NCBI GenBank assembly: GCA_947044365.1
Contig: OX345636.1
Location: 10,851,809-10,915,808 of the forward strand
Direction: 5' to 3'
DNA: 64,000 nt
Source of the DNA: Petrosia ficiformis
Taxonomy: Eukaryota; Porifera; Demospongiae; Haplosclerida; Petrosiidae
Part shown: one piece after another, positions 10,487-50,624 of the stretch
How the letters are laid out: each line of letters starts with the position of its first letter
Position numbering within the stretch: position 1 is the first letter of the stretch
Notes under the pieces: generated by a model
Databases searched by the model: none
Seen by the model: the letters and a program-made list of their open reading frames with translations, nothing else
Told to the model about the DNA's origin: nothing
Translations under genes and position numbers: made by a program

Positions 10487-10654
10487 TTCTAGATAATTAA
10501 ACAGGAAGTAGAATATCTACATTTAGATATAAAATGGAATACATTTTCAAAAGGAATACATATAAAATCAAACTCTAATACAAATGTATACATGAATTAA
10601 AAATATAATGGAAAAACATTACACCAAAATGAAAATGAAAATTATTTACACATA

Positions 10655-11065
10655 TCAAACCAAATCAAATGAATACACTCATACACATATTAAATCATAT
10701 CAAATGGAATACACTCATACACATATTAAATCATATCAAATGGAATACACTCATACACATATTAAACCAAATCAAATGGAATACACTCATACACATATTA
10801 AACCAAATCAAATGGAATACACTCATACACATATTAAACCAAATCAAATGGAATACACTCATACACATATTAAATCATATCAAATATAATACACTCATAC
10901 ACATATTAAACCAAATCAAATGGAATACACTCATACACATATTAAACCAAATCAAATGGAATACACTCATACACATATTAAACCAAATCAAATGGAATAC
11001 ACTCATACACATATTAAACCAAATCAAATATAATACACTCATACACATATTAATATCAAATGGAA
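10655..11065 (+). repeat. 36-bp minisatellite, about 11 copies
   Basis: The unit contains 'ggaatacactcatacacata' followed by 'ttaaaccaaatcaaat'. Two variants differ at 'ccaaatc' versus 'tcatatc', and blocks of variants alternate, giving a higher-order pattern. Because 36 is a multiple of three, long open frames with 12-residue repeats arise, but they have no other sign of being coding. A similar 'aatggaatacatt' motif recurs at 21630-21735. Confidence 0.9.
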
Positions 11066-12204: not shown

Positions 12205-15200
12205 TTATATATTTATTAATACTACACCACACATAATTAATAGCTGACCTGTATAGTCCTTTTTGTGATGATATTTTTCGATCACTTCTTCTTTTTCTAA
12301 ATAAATTTTCACTTCCCTTGCGACGTCTAGAAACTGTAATTGTTCCAAGACCTCAATAAGATTGCTCCACGTTACATCAGATGATTCGGACTCTATCCAT
12401 TTGATGAGAACGCTCTCTACCTTGGATTCATCTGTTGTGAAACTTTCTCGCTGCAATTTCTCACGAAAATTGATATCTATCTTCAGAGCTCTGGCAAAAT
12501 CATCCCAGTGGGCTGACCTCTTGCTGAGCAATTCGTAAACATCGTCAACCTCTGGTGACTTCTTCAATATAGAAGGAAGCACTTTACCACAAAGAGAAAA
12601 CAAACAATCAATAAAAAACTGAAAAACAACACTTTTAAAAACATTTTATTATTATGACTGTATAACATGCTCCTAACAAAAAATGTTTACATTCTTTAGA
12701 CATGGTAATATTCTTACCTTGTGGGGTATTAGCATCAGGAATCCAGTAGGCTTCTTCAGGAGTGAGATTACGATAAACTCGTTTCTTTTGATCACAAGAG
12801 GTCCTGATACCATCAGGGGAAGGGAGTAGATAGTGGAGATCAGAGGAAGAGTTGCATTCCTTTCCTTGACATACGAGCTTAAACTCTTTCTCTATAGGTA
12901 CACTAATAAACTGTAGACAACCATTTACCTGCTGGCAACAGGTCTTAAGAAGCACCTTGTGTGATTAAAGTATAAATGTATAAATAATATTGGTATATTA
13001 CAAATGATTTACCTGTAAAGATTCACAACTTTTTTGTATTGGAGTGAGCTTTGGAGAATCTGGAATATAGCGTAATAGATCGACTTGAATTACGTTTGGC
13101 AGTTCAGTAAGTGTCACTTCATTGATATCAAACAGGAAATGCATTCGATTACGAAAAACATCCTCATCAAATTGGAGGCTACATGTTTGTTGACCAAACC
13201 TAGCCATGGAGGTGACAAGACGTGTGAAGAAACCAGGGATTACATACCCTGTACTAAATGTGATGTGTAGAGGTGTAGCTTTCAAATTGTATCCAGGAGA
13301 AATAGTTGACGACGGATCTCCAGTGAATGTCGCCAGTACAGCAGGTACAAAAAACTGCTTGACATCACGATCATAGTACAGTTTCGAATCAAGCTCAGCA
13401 GCCAAACCGAAGTGAACCAAAAGTTGAATCATCTCTTCTGGTTCAACACCATCGCACTCTTTCCATGCTGCAGCATATAATGGTTGTACAAGAATACCTT
13501 TCTTCCTCAGAAGATCCCACATTTTCCCATACACTTCTCTTCCCTCAAGAGTGAGGACCTTCCCTAGGCAGTCCACAAACCACTTTGGACTGAGAATAAC
13601 TTTATCACCGAGGCCCTTGATATGAGGGTAGAACAAGACCACTCCCAGTTCATGGTAGAAATTGAGGACTTTCATAACATCCTTAGGTTCAATTTTACAC
13701 GATTTACCAACAGCAATTGCTTCACCGATGGTAATGGTATTTCTTGATTTCTTCTCCACAAGCATTTGCAAGACTTTACGAAATAGAATCCAAGATATTG
13801 GTGTTCTAACTTTCAGCTTTGTAGAGGTAAAATCATCAATTTCTTCCCTCAAACATTTGAAAGTGTTATCTTCATGTTCCTGTCCTGACGTGGTATTATC
13901 AACAATAAGGACCTTATGCTTGTCTAGAACTTCGGAGTAATGTCGGGCTTGTAGGAATTCTTCTAGGGTCTTCTTCACTCTCTCCTTTTCAGTAGCTTTC
14001 AACTTATCTCCCCGAGTGCCAACAGCGATTACTTTAGGATACTCCAGTATAGCATCTTTGTCGTCACGTTTCACAAGATTGGCATGAATATTAGACATCC
14101 AACTTTCCATGAGTTCAAGTGTAGTCATGCTCACATCTCCCACTGTAATCTCCTGTCCATGTTGGTATCGGACTGATCTCATTCTGGTATTGAGATCAGT
14201 GGAAGCATCAAAAAGGAGGAGAAACATGGTACGAGACGTTAGAAAGGCTGGTAGCACCTCCAGGAACACCGGTTGACCACCACAATCCCAAATGTGAAGG
14301 AAAGGTTGTGGTTTTAACTGTGTGATCTCAGTGGAACGCATTTGTTGAGCCATTGCCATCGCTTCAGAGAAAAATTCGCTTACTGACATTTCTTCTATTT
14401 CCTCATCATAACATCGTGGAATGTCTGTACTAGATGGCATCATGTCTCCTGCAAATAGTGTAGTAGCGAGCTCTGAACTGAGATGCGTTTGACTGCCACT
14501 TGGGTTATTATAGATAGTGGCCAGTAATCGAGCTAATTCTTCAATCTCGTCTTCTGGGGTGACCTCCCTCCACGGATCTCCTGCTTGAGCCCACTCATAT
14601 CGTACTGATTGAAGATCAGCAATGATAGTACTGTTCTTTCTTGAATCAAATGGTTTGCTCATAAGTCCACGTTTGAGGCTGCTTTTCCCAGCACCACATG
14701 GACCAAGTAACATGATACGTGCATACGCCACATCAAGTTCTCCATGAGAGAGGACTATTTCATAGGCTACACAAAAACAGGAATAAACATTATGGTGAGA
14801 TTTTCACAAACACAGAACAATTAAGATATTACTCATCTCCAATGTAACCCTTTCCTTGTGGGCAGAAGCGATATTTTGAAATGAGGTGCTGTTCAAGCTT
14901 GTGTCGAGTGACAAGTGTTCATGCTATTATTGTAAACTAAACTGGACGTTTACCATTTTAAAATTTCAATGTCTACACAGTGCTAATTGTAACTACACTA
15001 TGAAAAAAGGAGTAGTGGTAAGGATCTCATTGAATGTAGTCTACATCTCTTACTTTTACATACATCAAATAATTTAGCTCATAATTATATGTACCTCTCT
15101 TCATCCATCTTTCTCTCTATTTGATAAAATATGTAATTATTATAATTCTCTTCACTTAATTATACTCACCTCCTAGTAGATGTCATCACATTATAAAATG

Positions 15201-18200
15201 TCACAGATACAGGTTTGAAGAAGAGAAAAGCAGAGGGAATATATGAATATTCATAAATATGTCTCATCATACTCACCCGCTAGTAGATTCACAGTATTAT
15301 TAAAAAGAAAGAGTCATAGACACAGGATGCAAGATTAGAAAATTAAATATATCGAGGGATTTAATGATTATTCATATGTAAATTTAGTATTATCATACTC
15401 ACCCGCTAGTAAAATCACAGTAAAACAGAAAAACAAAGCATCACAGATAAAGAATTGAAGAACAGATATGTCAATATAGTGATTTAATGAATATTAATAA
15501 TTTTATTGAGTCATACTATACTCACCCACTAGCAAATTCACAGTAAAAAAAAACAGAGTCAGACACAAAATTGAAGAATGGAGAGGGATTTAATGAATAT
15601 TCATAATTATGTTGAGTTTCATTACACTCACCAACTAGTAGATTCAAAACACCAAGTCAGAAAAATGAGTCGCACACATAGGATTGAATAGAAAGTAAAT
15701 ACAGTGATTTAAATCATAATTATGTTGAGTGTTATTACACTTACCAACTAGTAGATTCACAGGAACATGTCATCACATTTGAAAAGAGTCACGGACACAG
15801 GATTGAAGAATAGAGGGATTTGATGAAATTCATAATTACATTTAGTCTCACTATACTCACCCGCTAGTAGATTTCACAATACAAATACGAAGTCACAGAC
15901 ACAGCATTGAAGAACAGAAAAGCAAATAGAGGGATTTAATGAATATTCACAATTATGTTAAGTCTCGTTTTACTCACCCCCTAGTAGATTAGCAGTAACA
16001 TGTCATCACATTACAAAAAATAAGCGTCACAGACACAGGATTGAAGAATAGAATAATAAATAGAAGGATTTATTGAAAATTCATAATTATGTTGAGTCTC
16101 ATTATACTCACCAACTAGCAGATTCACAGTAACATTTTAAAAATAAGCGTCACAGACACAGGATTGAAGAATAGAAAGGAAATAGAGGGACTTATAAAAT
16201 ATTCATAGTTTCATTATACTCACCGGCTTGTATATTCATAGCAACAAGACATCGCATTACAAAAACAAAGAGTCACAGACACAGGATTGAAGGAAAGGAA
16301 AGTAAATAGAGGATTTAGTCATTGCATTATGTTGAGTTTCATTATACTCACCCGCTAGTAAATCACAAATAAAAAGAGTCACCAGCACAGAATTTAAGAA
16401 TAGAGAATAAAAAGAGGGACTTAATGAATATTCACATTTAAATTGAGTTTCATTGCACTCACCAACTAGTAAATTGACAATACAATGTCGTCACATTACA
16501 AAAAAGAAGAGTCACAGACACAGGTTTGAAGGATAGAAAAGCAAATAGAAGGATTAATGAATATTGGTCACATTATATATACTAACCGGCTAGTTGATTT
16601 CACATTAGAAAAAATAAGAGTCGCAGACACAGGATTAAAGAATGAAAGAAGTAAACAGATGGATTTAGTGCATGATTGAAATTATATTGAGTTTCATTAT
16701 ACTCACCCCCTAGTAGATTCATAGTAACATGTAATCAAGAGTAACAGATATGGGATTAAAGAATGGAAAAGAAATAGAGGGATTAATGAATAACAATTAT
16801 GTTGAGTCTCATTATACTCACCGGCTATATAGTACATTCATAGTAACATGTCAATCACATTAAAAAAAGAAGAGTCACAGACACAGGACAGAAAAGTAAA
16901 TAAATGCATTTAATCAGGATTATGTTAAGCCTCACCTCCTAGTAGATTCACAGAACATATCATCACATTACAAAATAGAAGAGTCACAGACACAGGATAG
17001 AAGGATGGAAGAATAGTAAAGAATAGAGGCATTTAATGAATTTAATGTTGCGTCTCATTATACTCACCGTCTAAAGATTCACAGTAACATGTCATCATAT
17101 TACATCACAGGATTAAAGAATTGCAGAGTAAATAGAGGGATTAATGAATACTTTATAATTATGTTGTGTCTCATTATACTCACCGTCTAATAGATTCACA
17201 ATAACATGTCATCACATTGCAAAAAAAGCAGTCACAGACACAGGATTGAAAGCATAAATAGAGGGAACTAATGAATATAAATTGTTATCTCAGGGGTCAT
17301 TACACTCACCGGCTAGTACAATTACAGTAACATGTCATCAAATTACAAGAAAAGAGCCACAGACACAGGATTGAAGAATAGAAAAGGAACTAATGAATAT
17401 TCATAATCATGTTGAGTCTCATTATACTAACCGTCTAGTAGATTCACAGTAACATGTTATCCAATTACAAAAAAAAGAAGTCGCAGACACAGGATTGAAG
17501 TAAATAGAGGGATTCAATGAATATAAATAATTAAGTTGAGTCTCATTCTACTCACCATCTAGACAAATAGAAAAGTGATAGATAGTTTTAATGAATATTC
17601 AAATTTATATTGAGCTTGTTATACTCACCAGCTAGTGGATTCACAGTAACATGCCATCACATTACAAAAATGCAGAGTAACAGACACAGGATGGAAGAGT
17701 AAATATAGGGATTTAATGAATATTCTTAATTATATTGAGCTTGTTTTACTCACCCGCTAGTGGATTCACAATAACATGTCATCACAATACAAAAACAGAG
17801 TCACATAAACAGGATTAAAAAATAGAAAAGCAAACAGAGGGATTTAATCAAAATTATGTGTGTCTCCTTATACTCACCCGCTAGTAGATTCATAGCAGCA
17901 TATCATCCAATTATGAAAAAATTTCATAGACACAGGATTCAAGAATACAATTACAAATAGAAGATTTGGTGAAATTCATACTTTCATTAAGTTTAATTAG
18001 ACTCACCACCTAGTGGATTCATAGTAACATGTTCATCAAAGTATAAAGAATACATGATTTAAGAACAGAAAAGTAAATAGAGGGATTTAATGAATATCCA
18101 TAATTAAGTTGAGTCTCATTATACTCACCAACTAGTGTATTCACAGTAGCATGTCATCACATATTACAAAAAAGAATAGTCACAGAAGTAAATAGAGGGA

Positions 18201-19211
18201 TATAAGGATTGTGTTGAATTTTGTTACACTCACCAGCTAGTATATTCATGTCATCACATATTACAAAAAAAGAAGTCAAAGACACAGGATTAAAGAAAAT
18301 AGAGGGATTTAATAGACATAGTCATGTTCAATCTCATATCTTACCATCTAGTAGATTCACAGTATCATGTCATCAGATTACGTCACAAACACAGGATGAA
18401 GAATAGAAAAGTAAATAGCATAATTATGCCGAGTCTCATTATACTCACCCACTAGAAGATTCACAGTAACATGTCATCACAGAAGAGTCACAGACACATG
18501 ATTGAATAATACAAAAATAAGGAGGGATTAATGAATATTCATGATGAGTCTCATTATTTTACCTCCTAGTAAATTCACAATAACACGTAATCACATTATA
18601 AAAACAGAGAATTGAAGAATAGAAAAGTAAATAGAGGGATAATTATGTTGACTCATATCATACTTACCGGCTAGTAGATTCATAGTAGCATTCATCATGA
18701 ATAGAAAACCATAGTGCAAAGTAATATAGTACTAATTTTATCAGTTCTCAATTGTTAACTCACCAGCTAATATTTCCATCACATTATAACAAAGGAGTCA
18801 AAATAAAAGAAAATGACTTTGGAACTTTATTCACTCACCTCCTGATAGATTCATATGTAATATATTGTATCATAAACATGGAATTATATTACTCATAGCT
18901 AGGTAATAGATCTATAATAATAATACTCACCTCCTAATAGATTCAGATATTTTTTAAATAGTCACAAATATGAATGAATGGTTCAGTAAATGAATTATTA
19001 CTCATCAATAGATGCACTCACCTCCTAAGATTCAAATGATATGTAATAATGAAATATATGGATACATTTTCAAACCATCAGTAGTATTACATATGATACA
19101 CTTACATTATGTTCCTGAAATTATTGTATGCCATCACACAAAGTGTAAGACCATGAGCACAATATTAGAAGGAAAGTTAATACGCTGAAATAAGAAACTT
19201 ACCTCATCCAT
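12205..19211 (-). CDS. ROC-COR-Death GTPase gene with a microexon array near its 5' end
   Basis: Exons on the reverse strand: 19211-19203 (ATG GAT GAG, with A at -3 and G at +4), possible 19114-19106, about 35 three-base exons (15170-19024), 14923-14833, 14766-13013, 12955-12718 and 12581-12205. The junction phases close to the stop at 12205. The large exon has a P-loop GPCGAGKSSL, a G3-like WDCGGQPVF and a G4-like TRGDK, followed by a COR-type region, so it is a Roco GTPase. The 12955-12718 exon matches the usual Roco tail (LTPEEAYWIP). The last exon is a Death domain (WDDFARALKI ... VLIKWIES). The order resembles animal Roco-Death proteins such as DAPK1 without the kinase. Size is about 819 aa plus whatever the array adds. 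The C-terminus could be extended if the donor-like 'ACAG|gtcagc' near 12249 is used. It likely acts as a cytosolic signalling switch; partners are unknown. Confidence 0.82.
14833..14923 (-). CDS. Short coding exon linking the microexon array to the ROC exon
   Basis: The 91-nt exon lies between 'tttacaataatag' and 'ATGA|gtaatatc'. Only one frame is open; it reads HEHLSLDTSLNS and ends in VTLEM. Its acceptor is phase 0 and it leaves one base, A, which joins CC of the next exon (14766) to give Thr before YEIVLSHGELDVAY. Without this exon the ROC exon cannot be reached in frame from any upstream phase-0 exon. Its phase-0 acceptor is what makes the single-codon exons upstream frame-neutral. Confidence 0.7.
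15170..19024 (-). repeat. Tandem array of 35 units, each AG|NNG|GT: putative single-codon microexons
   Basis: On the reverse strand each unit reads ...tctactag|NNG|gtgagtataatgag..., followed by 70-131 nt in which AG is rare, so each spacer has the layout of a small intron. Exon left coordinates and triplets in transcription order: 19022 GAG; 18931 GAG; 18839 GAG; 18764 CTG; 18668 CCG; 18563 GAG; 18449 TGG; 18345 ATG; 18234 CTG; 18129 TTG; 18007 GTG; 17878 CGG; 17754 CGG; 17629 CTG; 17556 ATG; 17432 ACG; 17310 CCG; 17184 ACG; 17068 ACG; 16936 GAG; 16822 CCG; 16707 GGG; 16587 CCG; 16463 TTG; 16352 CGG; 16224 CCG; 16112 TTG; 15978 GGG; 15861 CGG; 15745 TTG; 15632 TTG; 15526 TGG; 15403 CGG; 15277 CGG; 15170 GAG. 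AG and GT are kept 35/35 and the third base is G 35/35. Donors are gtgagt in 28; the others are gtaagt, gttagt, gtgagg, gtaaga or gtaaaa. That the array exists is certain; that the triplets are spliced as exons is inference. Confidence 0.93.
19106..19114 (-). CDS. Possible 9-nt microexon (Glu-His-Asn)
   Basis: On the reverse strand 'caataatttcag|GAACATAAT|gtaagtgtatc' has an acceptor, nine bases and a strong donor, phase 0 on both sides. It sits between the start-codon exon (19203-19211) and the first single-codon unit, with introns of 88 and 81 nt. It is unlike the array units in sequence. It may be a real small exon or an ancestor-like neighbour of the array. Confidence 0.4.
19203..19211 (-). 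CDS. Start-codon exon of the ROC-COR-Death gene (Met-Asp-Glu)
   Basis: The sequence gaagaATGGATGAG|gtaagt has a favourable start context and a strong phase-0 donor. The exon ends in GAG just before the GT, like the first three array units and the last one. Upstream leader extends to higher coordinates. A donor-like 'CACTGTG|gtaagatc' at about 20003 could end a separate untranslated first exon. I cannot place the transcription start. Confidence 0.55.
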
Positions 19212-35223: not shown

Positions 35224-38200
35224 TCATTGGCTCTTATCAAAATCAAATATGAGAGATTCTCTTCGAATAACAACATTAGCTGGAGAATACAAGTCTTCTT
35301 CATTTGAAGATTCTTGTAACAACAGTTTTGCATCTTCATTCGTTTCTCGACTTTTAACACAGAGTTCAAATTTCAGTCCATACTTTCTCTTGATTGAGAT
35401 TAAAACATGAAAAGCTACTATACCTAAGAAGACCAATAGTGAAAGAGTAACAGATGCAATATTAAGAAAATGATTGAATTTGAAAACTGATTTTGGTAAA
35501 ATACTGGTAAACCCAAGATTGAACAGAAAGAAAAATTCCAACGCTGTGTTCCATTTATTTCTATATTTCCCTCGTACAAAGGCCAATAAAGTGAAGGACA
35601 CAATTGCTATGATATAGTTGTTTAATTGAGGGAGTGTTCCTGTTGTGTATGAAAATACAGGTATCAAAATAAGACGCATAATCAAAAGAACTCCAGTCCA
35701 AAACCGATACTTGTTTTTGTATGGACCAGTATAAGCATCAATTAATGGTTTCAGTTTCACTATAAGATTCCTGAAACTTGTACAACATTTACCACTGTAA
35801 AACTGTAACCATTGACTAGAGAATACCAGCCCTGTATACACTAGAGAGGTTAGTAGAAATAGGACAGACACCACAAAAAGTGGAATATGTTTACCATTTA
35901 GATAGGTAATATTACCATCTACACTCCAAACATTCCATACTTTATCCTCACATTTGATAGTGGCCATCATGAGCCCATTAGTAATAGTACGTAATAGTTT
36001 AGAGTAAGACATGAGAATGAGTGTAGCCAGAACCGGTACCGCATTGTTACCACAGAGTCGAGATAGTCTTCCTGAATAATGACAACCAACTACAATAAAA
36101 CCAATTAAAATCCAAATATACAGAGGAAATGAAAACTGTAGCCATGTTTTCCAGTAGCCATCTAGTCCATTGAAGAAACAGGTTTGAATACCAAGATCAA
36201 GATTAAGCCATGATATGAACTGATTCAACACAGGTATATTGACACCATCAGCAGAAATGAAAGCTTCGTTGAATTTGATTAAGTTAGCATAGAAAAGCAA
36301 TCCATTGATACTTCCTACAGACACAGTCAAATTACAGATCAGGAGAAATGCTACCAGTCCTATTCCAGCACTTATAAAAGCACTTAGGAGTATTATGTAT
36401 TTGTTCTCACACACGTCACATTGATTAGAGCCTAACATGAGACTAAGTCCTGGTTGACACCCTCCACACAAGATACCTGATCTGTTGTGTGAACATTGAC
36501 CATCTGACTCATTGAGGCTGAGAGACACATCTGATGATTTCAGACAATAATCAAATGGACAGTTTTGATATGCTACAAAACAGTTGTACTGATGACTGTA
36601 ATATAACCAGACATTGCCAGTTCTTTTGATTGGAAGTACCCAAGACACATCACATTGGCTAACATATGCAATAATATTATTACAAACACAAACTCCCAAA
36701 GCTAACTCCAGACCAAGAGGACATTGTAGAAATTTGACATCTATATGTAGTGATGTTCCTTTTATCCATATGGCATCATCAAATTTTTTAATTGATAATA
36801 CTATTTCTCCATTGTTAGATCCATTTTGATTCAATTGGAATGTAAAATTTGAACATGCATTTTCTGTCACCTGAGCACTGTTACCAAGGAGAACATCAAT
36901 TCCCTTGCTTTCAATTGCGATTACTCCAGGACTGATTTCTCCACACATTCCAACTGTTGCTAGTGATAAATGTATTGATTGACCAGGATATATCTCTTCA
37001 GAAACTGTCATGTTCTTACAGTCTGTTAAACCATTAACACTACAGATACACACACCTAATGGTCGTGTCATGAGGTGTGCTATTGGCATAGGAGGTGTTT
37101 GATGCCACTTAGTACAATCACTGATATTCTCATTACCTTCATACCAATCGCAATCAAAGTATTCACCTCCATATATATTATCACCAGCAATGGAAGCTGA
37201 ATTACCTTCAAACGTTGCAGTAAGGTTTTCAATAGAGCACCACGAAATTTCGTTAGCGAAAGAGAGAGTGATGTGATCAATATTTCTTGCACTGATATAT
37301 ATTGCTCCACCAAACTCTCTAGCTGTATTATTCACAAATTGGACAGGAACATAGCTTGCAATTGCAGTGGTTCCATCAGCATTTATACCTCCTCCACTAT
37401 ATGGTGTACTGTTATTTGCTATTAAGCTGGGCTGACCACCAAAATTTACACGACAATTTCGAATGTACATTCCACCCATGTTATTGTTAGTTATATTAAT
37501 ATCAGAAAACAATATTTTATACGCTGATTTTTGACAACCTATAAATAGACCAGCTCCATATACTCTTTCGCTTCGGAACGTGTTGTTTGATATTTGAATA
37601 TGCTCTAAGAAGATGTCGGTATTAGACACTGTCTCTGAAAGTTGTATTAGAATTCCATATTGCATTACATTATTTGAGATATTTAAACGATGTATCCTTA
37701 GAAGATTAATGTCTTTACCAACAATAACTATAAGTACAGATGGGTTTGGTACATTAGACTTGGTGATTGTACAGTCTTCAATAGTCACATTATAACAAAA
37801 AACCTCAATAGCTATAAATGTGGTTCCAATGAAGTTTGATTTCTGTATTACAACTGATGAATTGATAACTGATTCATTCTTTATAGAAAAAAAGCGAAAA
37901 GCCGAATTTGAATGGAAGAACAAGCTTCTCTCAATGAAAACGAACCCGTGGTTGGATTTAAATTTTATACCAAAGTTGAAACTACTATTGACAGAAGTTA
38001 ATTTATAAGAACTCATTGCAGAATGTGAAAAAACTCTGATTGGTTGACTAATATTACTAATGGATGATTCCTTCATAATAAAAACATCAGCTTTATCCAA
38101 TTCTTGTCCACATATATCTATACCAAGTCTGCTGCAATTTTGCACAGATGTTCGATAGAAAGATTTATGAAATACAGATGTAAGTGATAATCCAAATGGA

Positions 38201-38664
38201 CAGTCACTGATTGTTAAGCCATCAATATGAACTGTATTGGTATATGATATATTAATACCAATAGTAACGTTACTAGCACATCTAATGAACACATTTGATT
38301 GCATAACTGACCAATGGAATCCCTGTACCCACTGACCTTGACCTTTCAGCGTTACATTATGTAGTCCTTTCATAAGGAGACTATCAGTCAGAATATGATC
38401 CCCTTTAAGAAAGATAAGAGTGAAATTAGAAGGGATTGTGAAATTATTATTGGTGTAGTAAGAGATAGGGTAGCACTCTTGCTGCATAGGGCAGTCCTGA
38501 CTATCCATAGGTTTCACATAATAGACAGCAGCTCCTTTAATGCTGAATATGAAGGGGAGCAGGATAATCACCTGTAAAAGAAATTAACAGCAATAAAATT
38601 CATTTTGTCGCTTTCTGAATAAACTCACTTGAATGAAGATTGCATGAAATGACATTGCTTGCAT
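35224..38664 (-). CDS. Large surface receptor: beta-helix-like ectodomain plus multi-pass C-terminus
   Basis: Two exons: 38664-38629 (MQAMSFHAIFIQ, donor CAA|gtgagt) and 38571-35224 (acceptor tttacag|GTG). Together they start with a signal peptide split by the intron (IILLPFIFSIKGAAVYYV). Residues of about 40-500 are rich in Asn/Ser/Thr-X-turn repeats (N-V-T, I-S-N-N) like right-handed parallel beta-helix proteins, with many N-glycosylation sequons. A Cys-rich stretch (about 500-720) includes CGGCQPGLSLMLGSNQC. From about residue 725 come several hydrophobic segments (YIILLSAFISAGIGLVAF, LYIWILIGFIVVGC, PLFVVSVLFLLTSLVYTG and others) interleaved with conserved-looking LLFYANLIKFN, WLNLDLGIQTCFF and KHIPLF. 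Uncharacterised proteins of this architecture are numerous in sponges and choanoflagellates as I recall. Expected at the plasma membrane; ligand unknown. Confidence 0.85.
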
Positions 38665-39117
38665 CAGTCAATATACAATTCAGTGCTACACTTTACCAAC
38701 TGTATATATGTATGGTTACCGTAAATAATTCGTATTACAATGTACAAAAAGTTTCGTGGTTTATCCTTGCTGTCCCAGATTCGAATTTTTATTGGTGAGG
38801 CTAAAAAATGGCCCTCCAGAGACGCGTTTTCATGAGAGGTGTGGCCAAACTTAATTATTATTTTGATTATTCATTTCCCAATATGACCAGCCGTGAGGTA
38901 ACTCGCTACATCTCTAAGACAGAGAGAATCTGTTCTCTTACATCTGTATTTTATACTATCAAACATTTATGCAAAATTGCAGTGAGCATGGTATAGATAT
39001 ATTTAGACAAGAATTGTATAAAGCTGATATGCCCAGCGTCTGTACACCCATCTGTGCCATCTCACAACCAGCGAGTGGCCTTCTGGGAGATCGAGTCAAT
39101 AATTGGTTTCGAGTTGC

Positions 39118-39262
39118 CATGGAATCATCCATTTAGTCATTAGTTGGGAGTGTATTGGAGTTTTTGCACGTTCTGCAATGAGTTCTTATAAATTTACTTC
39201 TGTCAATAAGAGTTTCAACTTTGATCTACAATTTGGATCCAACAATGGTTTTATTTTCATTA
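39118..39262 (+). pseudogene. Receptor ectodomain fragment on the opposite strand
   Basis: The + strand reads SWECIGVFARSAMSSYKF and then TSVNKSFNFDLQFGSNNGF, clearly matching residues near HSAMSSYKLTSVNSSFNF of the - strand receptor. A stop and a frame change occur just upstream (near 39130). It is about 145 bp and has no flanking exon context. It is a third, inverted and older copy lying between the two - strand copies. Confidence 0.75.
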
Positions 39263-39954
39263 TATATATATAATTTATATTATAATAATTATAATTACAT
39301 ATTGTAATTATTGATTTTAATAAGAATAATTATTTTAGAATATTAAAAACATTTTCATTGTATTTTTCTGAATGGTACATGATTTGTGAATATTTTATGT
39401 AGATTGCTATAAGGCTTGATCATCATTGAAGGTCGGACTTCTATATAATTATATCCATTATTTATGAATTGATTATCATTTTCATTTCACTTACAGATGA
39501 TGCTGTCTGTTTTCTACTTCATTTACAGCTTTGCCACAAGAAGTAGTGCTAGTCTCTGTGTCAACCATTCGGCATTCCAGTGCTTATAATAGTGTATAAT
39601 ATTTATTTTATTATCAGTATACCATAGTTTTATTAATATTAACAATTATTATGCCCATTATTTTAAGAATGTATTTGCTCACAAACTTTATTACTATGCT
39701 TATGATTCCAACGTAGGTAACTGGTTACGTAGCAGCAATTAATTCCACGTGGTTAAATTAATGAATACACTTATAAATATGGCGTCCAATTCGAGATCAA
39801 ATCTTTACCGTCGTTGAGACTATCTTCTTTCATAGTATTTGAAGATATCGTCTCGATACTTGTAGACCAGAATTTTACAATGAATGCGATTGGAATGGTG
39901 CTAGAATCATTGTGATATTTCAACAAACAAAAAAAATGATTTGTCTGGAAAATA

Positions 39955-40185
39955 ATAATAAAAATATGAAGCAGATTTTGCCAGTTTTGCCACTCACCTG
40001 TTCTCTACCTTAAAGACAATCTTTGGCGATCTAGATGATGTTGGTAGTCATAAAAACGAAAACTTATATGTACATATTACCAGAGATTTCAGCTCATCAC
40101 TTGCAATTGAAATGTATGGGCGGCCATTTGTTTTCCGTGCCATCCCTACATAGAGAGTACTACCGTACTCTCTGATAATATTGCA
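39955..40185 (+). mobile_element. MITE family C, dispersed copy
   Basis: Shares 'gcagattttgccagttttgcc', 'ttggcgatctaga', 'gttggtagtcat', 'tttcagctcatcacttgcaa' and the end 'gccatccctacatagagagt' with copies at 60280-60515 and 62565-62775. The terminal part equals one arm of the 20776-20915 palindrome. Confidence 0.8.
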
Positions 40186-40499
40186 GTAAATTTTGAGCAC
40201 TGTTTTCTTTTGGACACCATTCCTGCAGAAAATATCAATGCAACAGAATATTCATCATTTATTTGATCAACAAATTATTATGCTGAGTCATTTAAAAATA
40301 GAATTGAGACAAGAATAATATAGAAACATGTTTAAAATGAAAGTATGTAGAGATATATATCAAAACTGAAAAAAAAAAACCAGGAACAAGATTGGGATAC
40401 TGCCTTGCTTTGGCAGCAAATTAAATACCATTTCCACATTAAACACCACTTCCACCAAACAATTCTGCATAAGTATATATTATAGCTAGAGTAAAGTAG

Positions 40500-42437
40500 A
40501 AATTTGACATCTATATGTAGTGATGTTCCTTTTATCCATATGGCATCATCAAATCTTTTAATTGATAATACTATTTCTCCATTGTTAGATCCATTTTGAT
40601 TCAATTGGAATGTAAAATTTGAACATGCTTTTTCTGTCACCTGAGCACTGTTACCAAGGAGAACATCAATTCCCTTGCTTTCAATTGTGATTACTCCAGG
40701 ACTGATTTCTCCACACATTCCAACTGTTGCTAGTGATAAATGTATTGATTGACCAGGATATATCTCTTCAGAAACTGTCATGTTCTTACAGTCTGTTAAA
40801 CCATTAACACTACAGATACACACACCTAATGGTCGTGTCATGAGGTGTGTTATTGGCATAGGAGGTGTTTGATGCCACTTAGTACAATCACTGATATTCT
40901 CATTACCTTCATACCAATCGCAATCAAAGTATTCACCTCCATATATATTATCACCAGCAATGGAAGCTGAATTACCTTCAAATGTTGCAGTAAGGTTTTC
41001 AATAGAGCACCACGAAATTTCGTGAAAGAAAGAGAGAGTGATGTGATCAATATTTCTTGCACTGATATATATTGCTCCACCAAACTCTCTAGCTGTATTA
41101 TTCACAAATTGGACAGGAACATAGCTTGCAATTGCAGTGGTTCCATCAGCATTTATACCTCCTCCACTATACGGTGTACTGTTATTTGCTATTAAGCTGG
41201 GCTGACCATCAAAATTTACACGACAATTTCGAATGTACATTCCACCCATGTTATTGTTAGTTATATTAATATCAGAAAACAATATTTTATACGCTGATAT
41301 TTGACAACCTATAAATAGACCAGCTCCATATACTCTTTCGCTTTGAAACGTGTTGTTTGATATTTAAATATGCTCTAAGAAGATGTCGGTATTAGACACT
41401 GTCTCTGAAAGTTGTATTAGAATTCCATAATCCATTACATTATTTGAGATATTTAAACGATGTATCCTTAGAAGATTAATGTCTTTACCAACCATAACTA
41501 TAAGTACAGATGGGTTTGTTACTTTAGACATGGTAATTGTACAGTCTTCAATAGTCACATTATAACAAAAAACCTCAAAAGCTATAAATGTGGTTCTAAT
41601 GAAGTTTGATTTCTGTATTACAACTGATGAATTGATAACTGATTCATTCTTTACAGAAAAACTGCGAAAAGCACAATGTGTATGGAAGAACAAGCTTCTC
41701 TCAATGAAAACAAAACCGTTGTTAGATACAAATTGTAGACCAAAGTTGAAACTACTATAGACAGAAGTAAATTTATAAAAACTCATTGCAGAATGTGCAT
41801 GAACTGTGATACACCCCCAACTAATTCGACTAAGGGATGATTCCTTCATAACAAAAACATCAGCTTTATCCAATTCTTGTCCGGAAATATTCATACCAAG
41901 TACACTGCAATTTTACACAGATGTTCGATAGAAAGATTTATGAAATACAGATGTAAGTGATAATCCATATGGACATTCACTGATCGTTAAGCCATCAATA
42001 TGAACTGTATTGGTATATGATATATTAATACCAATAGTAACGTTACTAGCACATCTAATGAACACATTTGATTGCATAACTGACCAATGGAAACCCTGTA
42101 ACCACTGACCTTGACCTTTCAGTGTTACATTATGTAGTCCTTTCATAAGAAGACTATCAGTCAAAATATGATCCCCTTTAAGAAAGATAAGAGTGAAATT
42201 AGAAGGGATTGTGAAATTCTTATTGGTGTAGTAGGAGAGAGGGTAGCACTCTTGCTGCATAGGGCAGTCCTGACTATCTGTAGGTTTCACATAATAGACA
42301 GCAGCTCCTTTAATGCTGGATATGAAGGGGAACAGAATAATCATCTGTAAAAGAAATTAAAAGCAATAAAATTCATTTTGTCACTTTCTGAATAAACTCA
42401 CTTGAATGAAGATTGCATGACATGCCATTGCTTGCAT
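40500..42437 (-). pseudogene. Truncated second copy of the receptor with two nonsense codons
   Basis: Exon 1 (42437-42402) and the exon 2 start (42344) match the intact gene, and the region 42344-40500 is nearly identical to 38571-36731. Two codons that are CAA in the intact gene are TAA here, at about 41915 and 41364. At 40500 similarity stops abruptly inside the ectodomain, and an unrelated tail follows, so the Cys-rich and membrane parts are missing. If transcribed it could give only short secreted fragments. The high identity implies a recent tandem duplication. Confidence 0.9.
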
Positions 42438-43893: not shown

Positions 43894-45689
43894 CAGTGGG
43901 GTAGGAACAGGGGGGGCAGGAGGGGCTGAGGCCCCCCCCCCAACGTATAGGTTGTGGGGGCTAGCCCCCCCCCCCCCCATTTACCACTGACAATAATATG
44001 TACTGATGTGCATATTAACAATTCATGCATTATGCTGATTCATGCATGTATATGTATAAGTTATCCTGAACAAATTCATACTTTGCCATGGAATGTATAA
44101 GTGTTAATTTATCAATAAATAAAGACAATAATTGAAGTGTGAAAGCAGCTGATATACCAGGTGGACTTGTAAAAATAATAATGGCTACTGGAAGGCAACC
44201 CACTTTAAAGTCATTTTTTTGTGCTACGACTTCTTCTCTTCAAAGCGATCAAAGCTAACAGTTGATGAGTCTTTTGATGAATCAGATAATGAAAATGAAC
44301 TAATGTAAGTTTATAATTTTATATCAGTAGCAACTTACCACTTGAGATTTCTTCATTTGTATAGGTTTGAAACGGGTGAACAAAACACATCATCATGTGA
44401 AGATGACTTATATGATGACACAATGGAAGTCAACAATGGCACTTTGTACTACTTGTGTGAGTTGTGACAAGGAGTGCTGTGATGATCAAAGTGTGCCTTA
44501 TCAGTCTTTCAGTGTTGACTCAAGTAAAAGAAAGCAGGGTAAGCAGAATCGTGTCTTTCAAAAAAAGTGGTTTTCCGATCACAAATGGCTATCCTATTGC
44601 TTAACTTGTAATGCAGTCTTTTGTTTTTACTGCCGTAAAGCAACTTTGTAAGGAGGATTGACATTCAGTACAAGAGGTGATTCATCATTCGTTACAAATG
44701 GGTTTCGCAACTGGAAGAAAGGGAAAGAAAAGTTTAGGAATCATGAAATGAGTCAGACTCACAATGAAGCAGTTTTAAAATGTGAATCTTTAAGCAGACC
44801 CACCATATTAACTTTAGCAAATTCAGCTCTAAAGAAAGACCAAGAAGAAAGAAGGGAGATGTTAATGAAGCAACTTCGTTCTCTTCGCTTCTTATTGCGC
44901 CAAGGATTGGCTATTAGAGGTCATTCAGACACAGATGAAGAAAATCTATATCAACTGATGAAGTTTCAGGCAGTTAGTTCTTCGCAGCTTCAAAGTTGGT
45001 TAAGGGATAAGAAATATCAATCACCAGAAATTGTGAATGACCAAATTCAGTTGATGTCAAAGCATGTCTTAAGGTCATTACTCACTAACATTAAAGCAGA
45101 ACCTTTCTATTCAATAATAGCTGATGAAACGACAGATGTTAGTGGAAAAGAGCAGCTAGCAATATCACTAAGGTGGGTAACTAGTTCATATGAGATTCAC
45201 GAAGATCTGATAGGCTTGGTATATGTTGAAACGACTGATGCCTTGACACCAAAAACTGTCATCAAAGACAGTCTGATTCATTGTGGCTTGTCTCTTTCCT
45301 CCTGTCGCGGGCAGGCATACGATGGGGCAGCTAACATGGCTGGTCATTTAAGTGGTGTGGCTGCCAGAATACAGCAAGAAGAACCAAAAGCATTATTTGT
45401 TCACTGTTTTGCCCACTCAGTGAACTTGTGCTTACAAGAATGTGGGAGACAGTTGAAGGTCATCAGAGATGCATTGTCTCTGGTAAATGAAGTCTGTAAT
45501 TTCATTAGATTATCTCCCAAACGCTTGTCATTATTTGAGCGCATGAAGAGTGAGAGTGGAATGTCTTCAAAGATATTGCCATGACATTTATAAAAAGTAT
45601 GCATATGTTCATTAATGATTGTATCAGTCAATGCATGGTAGTGGCACTCAGTCCTTAGCCCCCCCATTTATCATTTCGTTCCCCCTATG
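43894..45689 (+). mobile_element. hAT-type DNA transposon with 8-bp target duplication
   Basis: GATGCAGA flanks both sides (43886-43893 and 45690-45697). The ends CAGTGGGGTAGGAAC and its imperfect mirror (gttccccctatg) plus G/C runs (aggggctgaggccccccccc and ttagccccccc) form the TIRs. A 'CA' start and 8-bp duplication are hAT hallmarks. Its cargo is a C-terminally truncated transposase, so the copy is non-autonomous. Confidence 0.88.
44182..45584 (+). pseudogene. hAT transposase (TTF zinc finger + DUF4371), broken
   Basis: A first exon near 44182-44305 starts MATGRQPTLKSFF and loses frame in a T run before KRSKLTVDESFDE. The second part from about 44365 has a TTF-type finger (KKWFSDHKWLSYCLTC, FCFYC), then a stop codon at 44649-44651, then a DUF4371/RNase-H-like core with IIADETTDVSGKEQLAISL, GAANMAG and FVHCFAHSVNL. 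The catalytic region is cut off at SSKILP. The C-terminal dimerisation domain, roughly another 250-300 residues in the family, is absent. Three lesions make it dead. Confidence 0.88.
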
Positions 45690-48389: not shown

Positions 48390-48600
48390 ATTATTTGAAG
48401 ACTTAACATGTTTATATTGTTTAGTCATGTATGTCATTGTATTGCATATATATTATTGGCTCTGGTAGCCCTGATTTTATGTTGCTGCTGTTTGTATATA
48501 AGTAAGAGTACTTTGTCTTATTTGGTTTGAAAATAGATATACTCTGAAGTAAATATTGTTGTTGAAAACACATTAATTGGCGATGAGGTCAGTACGGACT
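48390..48600 (+). other. Probable LTR end and primer-binding region of a Ty3/gypsy element
   Basis: 'tataagtaagagtactttgt' and an AT-rich stretch precede 'aattggcgatgaggtc' 30 bp before the gag ATG. 'TTGGCGAYGAGG' after an LTR is a layout I know from several gypsy lineages. The matching 3' LTR is not found near 50624, so the element is incomplete. Confidence 0.4.
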
Positions 48601-48601
48601 C

Positions 48602-50624
48602 ATGGCTGTTCAAAGTTTTGGCCCGTTTGATGGTGCGGAAGAGGACTGGAGGTCCTATACAGAGAGGTTAGGACAGTACTTCATAGCGAATCAGATCACG
48701 GGTGAGGAAAGGAAGCGTGCGTTCCTGTTGAGTATATGTGGCCCACAGACCTACCAGCTTATGAGAAATATTTTGGCACCTACTGCCAAACCAGAAGACA
48801 AGAACTTCGAGGAGCTGGTTAGTCTAGTGGAGAGACACAAGAATCCGAAGCCATCAGTGATAGTTTGCAGATACAATTTTAATTCTCGTACCAGGAAGCC
48901 AGAAGAAACAGTGGCGGAATATGTGGCGGAGTTGCGAAAATTGGCAGAGTACTGTGCATTTGGAAGTGACGTGGAAGACATGCTCAGAGATAGGATCGTG
49001 TGTGGTATCAGTGATACTAGGCTTCAAAAGAGACTTTTAACGGAGAAGGATCTAACATATAAGTCTGCTTTAGAGCTGGCACAGTCCTGGGAAGCAGCCG
49101 AGCTGAATGCAAAGGACATTCAAAAGCAGCCAAGTGGAATGAATTTGTATAGAGTATTTCAAGATAATCGCAGCACAACTTGTTATCGATGTGGTGGTCA
49201 GCACTTCCCCCAAAGTTGCAAGTTCAAGCAAGTCAGATGTCATGCCTGCCAGAAGACGGGTCACCTTGCTAGAGTCTGTCGCAGTAGAACAGAGATTCGA
49301 GCAGAGAGTTCCCTTCCTCATAGACGACAACATACGCCTAAAGAGTTTCACAAAACTCATTGCGTTGATTCGAAATTGGAGCAACAGCTGGAAGAGGAGG
49401 AAGAGGAATGGACTTACTCATTGTTTAGAGTGAAAGGAAGTGGAGGAAGCAAACCAATAATTGTGACTGTAATTGTACATGGAACTGAACTTGTGATGGA
49501 ATTGGACACAGGAGCATCCAGATCAATAATTAGTGAACGAACATATGAGCAGCTCAGGAAGAATGGCGCTCCATCGCTGGAATCATCTGTTATCAAACTA
49601 CGTACGTACACTGGAGAACAGCTGTCAGTACTGGGAACACTGTCAGTGCCTGTCACCTATCAAGACCCAACATATCAAGGATTTGGATCTCTTGGTGGTG
49701 AAAGGAGATGGCCCTAGCCTTTTTGGCCGAAATTGGTTGGACAGAGTGAGATTAGATTGGTCTAATATATATAAAATCCGATCAGACCTTTTTGGCCGAA
49801 ATTGGTTGGACAGAGTGAGATTAGATTGGTCTAATATATATAAAATCCGATCAGAGTCGCAGTCAAGATTGCAGTCCATACTACAGGGGTTCCAGTCACT
49901 TTTTGGCGAGGATTTGGGAGAGGCCAGGAATTTCTCAGCTAAAATCTGTTGCTAAAGACGAGAAACCGCGTTTCTATCGCCCTCGAAGAGTTCCCTATTC
50001 CTTAAAAAATAAGGTTGAAGAAGAACTCGATCGTCTGGAAAAACAAGGTGTCATAGAACCTTGCCAGTTCTCCGACTAGGCAGCACCCATTGTTCCTGTT
50101 CTTAAACAATATGGTCAAAATGCTCCCATCTATTACATATTTGGGACACAGAATTTCTGCGGATGGTCTGCGCCCAAGTGAAGATAAAACTGCAGCCATC
50201 CGAAGCTCACCTGTTCCATTAAATGTATCTCAATTGAGATCATATCTAGGGGCAGTAAATTATTATCGTAAGTTTGTGCCCAATGTATCGAGCATTTTGG
50301 CTTTGTTGTATCATTTATTACAGCAAGATGTCAAATGGCCTATATTGTCTCGTGTGAGAGACAGTGTTGAAAGGCTGGGTTGGGAGATACTACTGATCCC
50401 GAATTGCAACCTTATCATCGAAAAAGGATGGGAAAGAGAGAGTGTTCAAAGGTGATTCCGTATACATTAGAGATCTTCCAAACAACAAAGGATGGTTACC
50501 TGGTGTTGTGTCTAAGAGTGAAGGACAATCTTACCAAGTGATCTTAACAGATGGAAGGATAGTTCGACGTCATGTTGACCACATACAAAATAATCTGCAT
50601 CTATCTCGTCTATTTTTGCAGTGA
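48602..50624 (+). pseudogene. Decayed Ty3/gypsy gag-pol
   Basis: The gag frame (48602-49717) has a capsid-like helical region, two CCHC knuckles (CYRCGGQHFPQSC, CHACQKTGHLARVC) and a retropepsin site LDTGAS. Frame is then lost. The early pol piece FGRNWLDRVRLDWSN occurs twice because of a 69-bp tandem duplication (49718-49855). A start of RT (EEELDRLEKQGVIEPCQF) is followed by an in-frame stop near 50078. Most of RT is missing; a later piece ITYLGHRISADGLRP ... YLGAVNYYRKFVP joins directly to an integrase C-terminal piece (KGDSVYIRDLPNNKGWLPG). It is an internally deleted, multiply frameshifted relic. Confidence 0.85.

Follow-up and report, generated by a model that had tools for sequence, protein, structure and literature searches.

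Can a gene contain dozens of consecutive exons, each consisting of a single codon? This question is raised by a 64-kb stretch of the genome of the sponge Petrosia ficiformis (assembly GCA_947044365.1, contig OX345636.1, positions 10,851,809 to 10,915,808; hereafter, the window), in which a gene for a Roc-COR-Death protein, located on the minus strand, includes a tandem array of short units, every one of which comprises AG, exactly three bases, and GT. The window was studied together with searches of the 191-Mb genome. The 35 three-base units of the array are very likely single-codon exons, and their serial splicing into the N-terminal end of the encoded protein is predicted as the probable outcome. 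They share their anatomy and splice signals, include no stop codons, and are found in the same layout in related genes.

The 35 units recorded in the original prediction, their coordinates (19024 to 15170), the AG-three bases-GT pattern (35 of 35 units), and the unit-to-unit spacing of 73 to 134 bp were all borne out on recount. GTGAGT serves as the donor at 27 of the 34 positions between units. The triplets comprise GAG and CGG (6 each), CCG and TTG (5 each), CTG and ACG (3 each), TGG, ATG, and GGG (2 each), and a single GTG, with no stops among them. The expectation that third positions would be nearly devoid of A and T holds for the window array, in which the third base is G in all 35 units, but fails in its relatives, which contain ATA, AAT, GAA, CGA, AAA, and other triplets. 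The pattern AG-NNG-GTRAG has 34 matches on both strands of the window, of which 32 lie inside the array region. With the YAG...GTRAGT context, there are 29 matches at a spacing of 3 nt in the array region, and the sole other match at spacings of 0 to 12 nt is one at 9 nt.

Constraints on the units

In the whole genome, the exact motif CTACTAG-NNN-GTGAGT is found at 446 sites, compared with 3 in the reversed control. The same flanks separated by 0 to 2 bases occur at 10 sites (29 in the control) and those separated by 4 to 12 bases occur at 62 sites (61 in the control): among spacings of 0 to 12, enrichment is limited to exactly 3 bases. Separately, two clusters of sites in which 7 or 8 bases separate CTACTAG from GTGAGT were seen at C6:5.55-6.36 Mb and C8:4.72-4.95 Mb; these are possibly ordinary short exons or other repeats.

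Neither TAG nor TAA/TGA is present at any of the 446 sites, which include 89 triplets of the T(C/G/T)G class, 20 of the (A/C/G)AG class, and 105 of the (A/C/G)(A/G)A class, the other 232 not being classed. Similarly, in arrays with the YYAG-NNN-GTRAGT context, stops account for 0 of 222 units, versus 12.5 expected from base frequencies. This set comprises the 222 of 229 sites that fall in groups of three or more; the window contributes 28 of its 35 units, and one pseudogene array is included. Counting each triplet once per array, which allows for part of the relatedness of the repeats, leaves 0 stops among 109 types, versus 6.4 expected (P=1.3e-3).

In nine arrays without a known lesion (the window, L008, and L039-L045, with the gene of L043 unchecked for lesions), all 137 acceptor cores, a subset of the units that includes 17 of the 35 in the window, are followed by exactly 3 bases and then GT. 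In the arrays beside broken Roc genes at C1:10.96 Mb and C2:11.463 Mb, 3 of 9 cores deviate, with one 4-nt unit, one 2-nt unit, and one lost donor (0/137 versus 3/9, Fisher p=1.7e-4). The former of these is a pseudogene copy of the window gene (C1:10.958-10.961 Mb, L004 and L005) with a shorter array and a truncated Roc domain; its array includes the 4-nt unit and a broken donor, and a second broken donor was noted by eye at the last unit. The region before the acceptor shows a further bias. In 149 units from five arrays, the 28 bases preceding the splice AG contain no AG dinucleotides versus 300 GA, a tally inflated by the shared descent of the units; between -90 and -60, AG and GA are nearly balanced, with counts of 108 and 112.

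Units are found upstream, on the coding strand, at no fewer than 32 Roco loci, pseudogenes and fragments included; this is a hand count over the sites and Roc matches listed, combined with an upstream scan. The single sites C4:3719378 and C5:5439826 and a cluster of units at C5 8.1-8.3 Mb have no Roc match nearby among the matches listed. One locus in that region, L043 (C5:8228500-8236499), contains 15 single-codon units (WLVPHWGWWRLDDWP) between exons judged by eye to be ankyrin-like, so that genes other than those of the Roco family also have this layout. Similarity between the ankyrin-gene unit and the Roco units is weak (z scores of 0.6 to 4.5 in six comparisons), and therefore likeness of layout is claimed here, not common origin. 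Sites like those of L043 recur over C5:8.147-8.286 Mb. A search for relatives elsewhere matched 53 stretches in viral contigs and 32 in genome contigs, none of which was confirmed.

Host gene and its paralogs

The predicted exons of the window gene, in the order of transcription, are as follows:

19203..19211, minus strand: first exon, predicted coding part, ATGGATGAG (M-D-E), with a GTAAGT donor, phase 0
19106..19114, minus strand: second exon, predicted, 9 nt (E-H-N), phase 0
15170..19024, minus strand: array of 35 single-codon exons, predicted (EEELPEWMLLVRRLMTPTTEPGPLRPLGRLLWRRE), with 34 introns of 70-131 nt between them
15095..15116, minus strand: linker exon, predicted, 22 nt (RERWMKR plus G), phase 3n+1, with a GTACAT donor
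14833..14923, minus strand: 91-nt HEHLS exon of the original prediction, not conserved, probably unused
13013..14766, minus strand: exon of 1754 nt encoding the Roc domain (Pfam, E=4.6e-11) and the COR-A domain (Pfam, E=3.7e-16)
12718..12955, minus strand: exon, predicted, 238 nt, without a Pfam match at E<=0.001
12205..12581, minus strand: last exon, predicted, with the Death domain (Pfam Death, E=2.5e-09) and an uncertain 3' end, preceded by a 136-nt intron

The Roc and COR-A domains are encoded in one exon, and both score over the Pfam curated cut-offs, which places the protein in the Roco (Roc-COR) family; the Death domain, at 37.6 bits versus a cut-off of 22.6, assigns it to the Death-domain Roco type. 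A homolog from Amphimedon queenslandica (44%) is the sole one with a source name among the protein matches listed. An initial choice of the acceptor for the last exon gave stops and was dropped in favor of another one. Of the 41 predicted exons, 36 are internal and 9 or 3 nt long.

The layout around the array recurs in the paralogs. Exon 1, recognizable as ATGGAYGAG directly followed by GTA, is present in all six paralogous loci (L006, L008, and L039-L042) and also in L044 and L045; the pseudogene copy at C1:10.96 Mb yielded no match to it. The 9-nt exon 2 is at the matching place in seven of these eight loci (L008, L039-L042, L044, and L045, by eye in L040 and L042) and, judging by eye, has been lost in the pseudogene L006. 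A candidate linker exon of 22, 16, or 10 nt is present in 13 of 15 scanned Roco loci, among them that of the window (12 of the 14 others): candidates of 22 or 16 nt occur in 12 of the 15, L037 has one of 10 nt, some loci have extra candidates, and L022 and L030 have none. The first scan was restricted to 3n+1 lengths; a repeat that took all lengths from 10 to 61 nt produced 23 candidates of the 3n+1 class and 6 in each other length class. In L040, visual inspection revealed one more 22-nt exon.

These comparisons bear on the exon that follows the array. In the original prediction, the array was joined to the HEHLS exon, which is probably wrong; the conserved 22-nt exon at 15116-15095 fits instead. 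The last base of this exon completes the A in the A-Y that opens the Roc exon, and the frame fits the 91-nt HEHLS exon only if the 22-nt exon is skipped. Counterparts of the 91-nt exon in six C3 copies have indels that are not multiples of three or have lost the donor (the donor GT is missing in five of the six), five C2 copies and a single C14 copy gave no scoring counterpart, and none of the 12 relatives examined has an intact one. The HEHLS exon, which had been included in the first predicted protein, was set aside because the 22-nt exon recurs in relatives and the 91-nt one does not.

Elsewhere in the window are a 36-bp minisatellite (11.5 copies with 95% matches at 10647-11061), a large 1119-amino-acid open frame that shows membrane-like segments by eye and adjoins its partly broken near-copy (both within 35224-42356), an open frame resembling a hAT-type transposase (44346-45584), and open frames resembling retrotransposon gag and pol pieces (48587-50455), the last two being assignments made by eye with no family search run.

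Evolution of the triplets and alternative explanations

Mean pairwise differences per site between the units of an array are 0.567 for triplets and 0.097 for flanks in L039, 0.577 and 0.143 in L041, 0.478 and 0.224 in L040, 0.473 and 0.337 in L042, and 0.498 and 0.444 in the window. In L039, 18 units with identical flanks of 60+47 nt carry five different triplets, ATG, GGG, CCG, ATT, and ATA. In three C3 sister genes, each of the first seven units has a single counterpart, identified by position and flanks, and these units show no homogenization. In two pairs of these genes, the triplets have accumulated more substitutions per site than the introns (8/21 versus 33/654, p=1.1e-5, and 6/21 versus 25/653, p=1.9e-4), and the same is seen in a C2 pair (2/21 versus 2/661, p=0.005). 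Triplets thus change faster than introns in several sister-gene pairs. All changed codons in the sister-gene comparisons are nonsynonymous; for the Roc exon, dN/dS is 0.24-0.72 in five pairs.

The original proposal of tandem single-codon exons in a Roc-COR-Death gene finds strong support, as far as sequence goes, in the absence of stops, the enrichment at a spacing of 3 nt only, the decay of units beside broken genes, the phase and anatomy shared with paralogs, and the triplets that change faster than introns in several sister-gene pairs; the use of the units in mRNA stays a prediction. It follows from these signs of selection that the triplets are very likely translated as codons.

Several observations weigh against this reading. 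The array repeats are related by descent, so their counts are not independent, and neither are the sister-gene pairs. The third C3 pair (3/21 versus 30/663, p=0.075), the other C2 pairs (3/21 versus 26/641, p=0.059, and 3/21 versus 25/640, p=0.054), and five of the six comparisons in a second C2 run of four genes and six units (p-values of 0.045 to 1, these five being 0.058 to 1) are above 0.05. C2 and C3 genes have 2 to 6 of the 7 first codons in common in 12 pairs; codon conservation between these groups was dropped as support because 6/7 was the best pair only. When the window array is compared with that of its pseudogene copy, all 13 matched triplets are the same (0 of 39 bases changed) at 7.2% divergence of the flanks, unit 26 being matched by order and not by its best flank score. 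Nine Roco loci at C2:6.1-6.3 Mb have no units in the upstream 1.5 kb. At C9:5677803, about 4 kb beyond the C9 array units read, CTACTAG directly adjoins GTGAGT; this could be an empty unit or a chance match. With a looser context, one 2-nt match was found in L042. A search with the predicted N-terminal 95 residues, a query that included 30 residues (42-71) of the later-rejected HEHLS exon, retrieved no protein at E<=1 among 71 candidates, and a search for a processed copy of the joined first exons returned 12 matches (8 in the control); each had 2 mismatches, and none was convincing. In a protein search with 727 matches, the predicted array N-terminus was not seen by eye among the 22 examined of the 120 matches listed.

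The failure of the N-terminus search to produce a match, together with the tandem repetition within an intron-like region, is what could be expected from an intronic minisatellite with cryptic splice-like motifs that are never spliced into mRNA. Such an explanation is extremely unlikely, given 0 stops among 446 sites, enrichment at spacing 3 only, broken or frame-breaking units confined, in the arrays compared, to the vicinity of broken genes, and the layout shared by 32 Roco loci (the hand count given above). A different possibility is that the codons are old and have been retained while the introns were repeatedly homogenized by exchange, producing the contrast between triplets and introns without diversifying selection. 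Blocks of about 11 units in L039 are indeed repeated with the codon order unchanged, the 13 triplets kept by the pseudogene copy fit as well, and several sister-gene comparisons are not significant; against this stand the unhomogenized C3 units, with their 8/21 and 6/21 triplet changes versus 33/654 and 25/653 in introns, and we consider this explanation unlikely. A mutational hotspot as the source of triplet variety was rejected, in its simple form, because of the 0/39 triplet changes in the pseudogene pair. Nothing in this pair suggests, either, that codons changed faster in the lineage of the window itself; selection therefore looks lineage-dependent.

Splicing of the array and known systems

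If the single-codon exons are spliced in series, intron definition would have to account for the removal of each ~70-131-nt intron, as exons of 3 nt fall below the size that exon definition requires. Splicing might proceed sequentially from 5' to 3', with every step restoring an NNG-GTGAGT donor, as in a three-base ratchet. The mRNA including all units can be predicted to gain an insert of 9+105+22 nt that reads GAACATAAT-GAG-GAG-GAG-CTG-CCG... Unequal exchange would make the introns more uniform while altering unit number, and in some lineages the codons would be altered by selection. The expected outcome is a fast-changing N-terminal segment of up to ~45 residues before the more conserved signaling core. 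With units of one codon each, neither gain nor loss nor skipping of a unit shifts the frame.

Two other modes of exon use can be considered. Exon 2 and each of the 35 units contribute whole codons in phase 0, so that any subset keeps the frame, and mRNAs could each include a variable subset of the translated single-codon exons, resulting in many protein tails from one gene that differ residue by residue. The similar signals of the units would invite skipping, and exon skipping is named as a source of variation in flatworm micro-exon genes (MEGs) in an excerpt of PMC7653826. The strong GTGAGT donors (27/34) and AG-free acceptors are also suited to constitutive use, and such combinatorial inclusion is regarded here as possible but doubtful. 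More tentatively still, dozens of single-codon exons per gene in ~30 Roco copies plus the ankyrin-like cluster, if used in variable combinations, might equip the death-domain signaling proteins of each animal with an extremely diverse set of N-terminal tails that could perhaps serve to recognize self or microbes; we know of no such system. Alternatively, a single unit could be chosen per mRNA, swapping one residue, as in Dscam, where exclusion relies on a docking site and selectors in competing RNA pairing. Similar repeated alternative exons under unequal exchange do resemble Dscam clusters, and codon order shows only partial conservation between the C2 and C3 groups (2 to 6 of 7). However, units that are all whole codons offer no enforcement of exclusion by frame, and mutually exclusive choice is quite improbable.

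If the array is translated as a series of single-codon exons, we know of no coding sequence that is more finely divided, with 34 introns within 35 codons, and its serial 3-nt exons would probe how small an exon the spliceosome can handle. Such arrays would allow protein segments to evolve by copy number in a frame-safe manner and would represent a fast-evolving type of region new for the death-domain genes of sponges. They would probably escape detection by standard gene finders and RNA-seq aligners. No tandem array of one-codon exons is described in the titles and abstract openings listed by searches of open-licence literature.

The array resembles the Dscam clusters in the tandem duplication of exons, those of Dscam being much larger and mutually exclusive. 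In an excerpt of PMC3364881, hypervariable Dscam exon clusters exemplify protein diversity arising from tandem exon duplication. The 3-bp micro-exon of Drosophila homothorax, mentioned in part of PMC7392893, is also a one-codon exon and shows that exons of this size do get spliced, yet it is single and not part of an array. The 1-nt micro-exons of plant APC11 and VPS55, with GTRAGT donors, described in a section of PMC8831610, demonstrate splicing of exons shorter than 3 nt; unlike the array units, they are single, conserved, and neither repeated nor diversifying.

The closest system is represented by the MEGs of flatworms (Schistosoma and tapeworms), which, according to passages of PMC10526429 and PMC7653826, contain very short exons in uninterrupted series, most with lengths that are multiples of three; the exons are given as 3-81 bp long in the abstract and as 6-81 bp, the majority 15 bp, in the text, the introns are 0.1-5 kb, and the products are secreted proteins. 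The same passages state that single-amino-acid exons occur throughout biology. The MEG superfamily is characterized in PMC10526429, in the portion available, as encoding a secreted protein with an N-terminal signal peptide; the predicted N-terminus of the window protein, MDEEHNEEELPEW..., is unlike a signal peptide by eye, with no predictor run. The numerical criteria quoted from PMC7653826 (a minimum of seven exons, of which at least half are <70 nt with a length divisible by three, four or more of them in a row) would fit the window gene if its exons are used as predicted. Judging from these passages, the window gene as predicted shares with flatworm MEGs the runs of short exons and the frame-safe skipping and differs from them in having 35 consecutive exons of exactly one codon, arranged as tandem copies with introns of ~70-131 nt, in a gene for a Roc-COR-Death protein.

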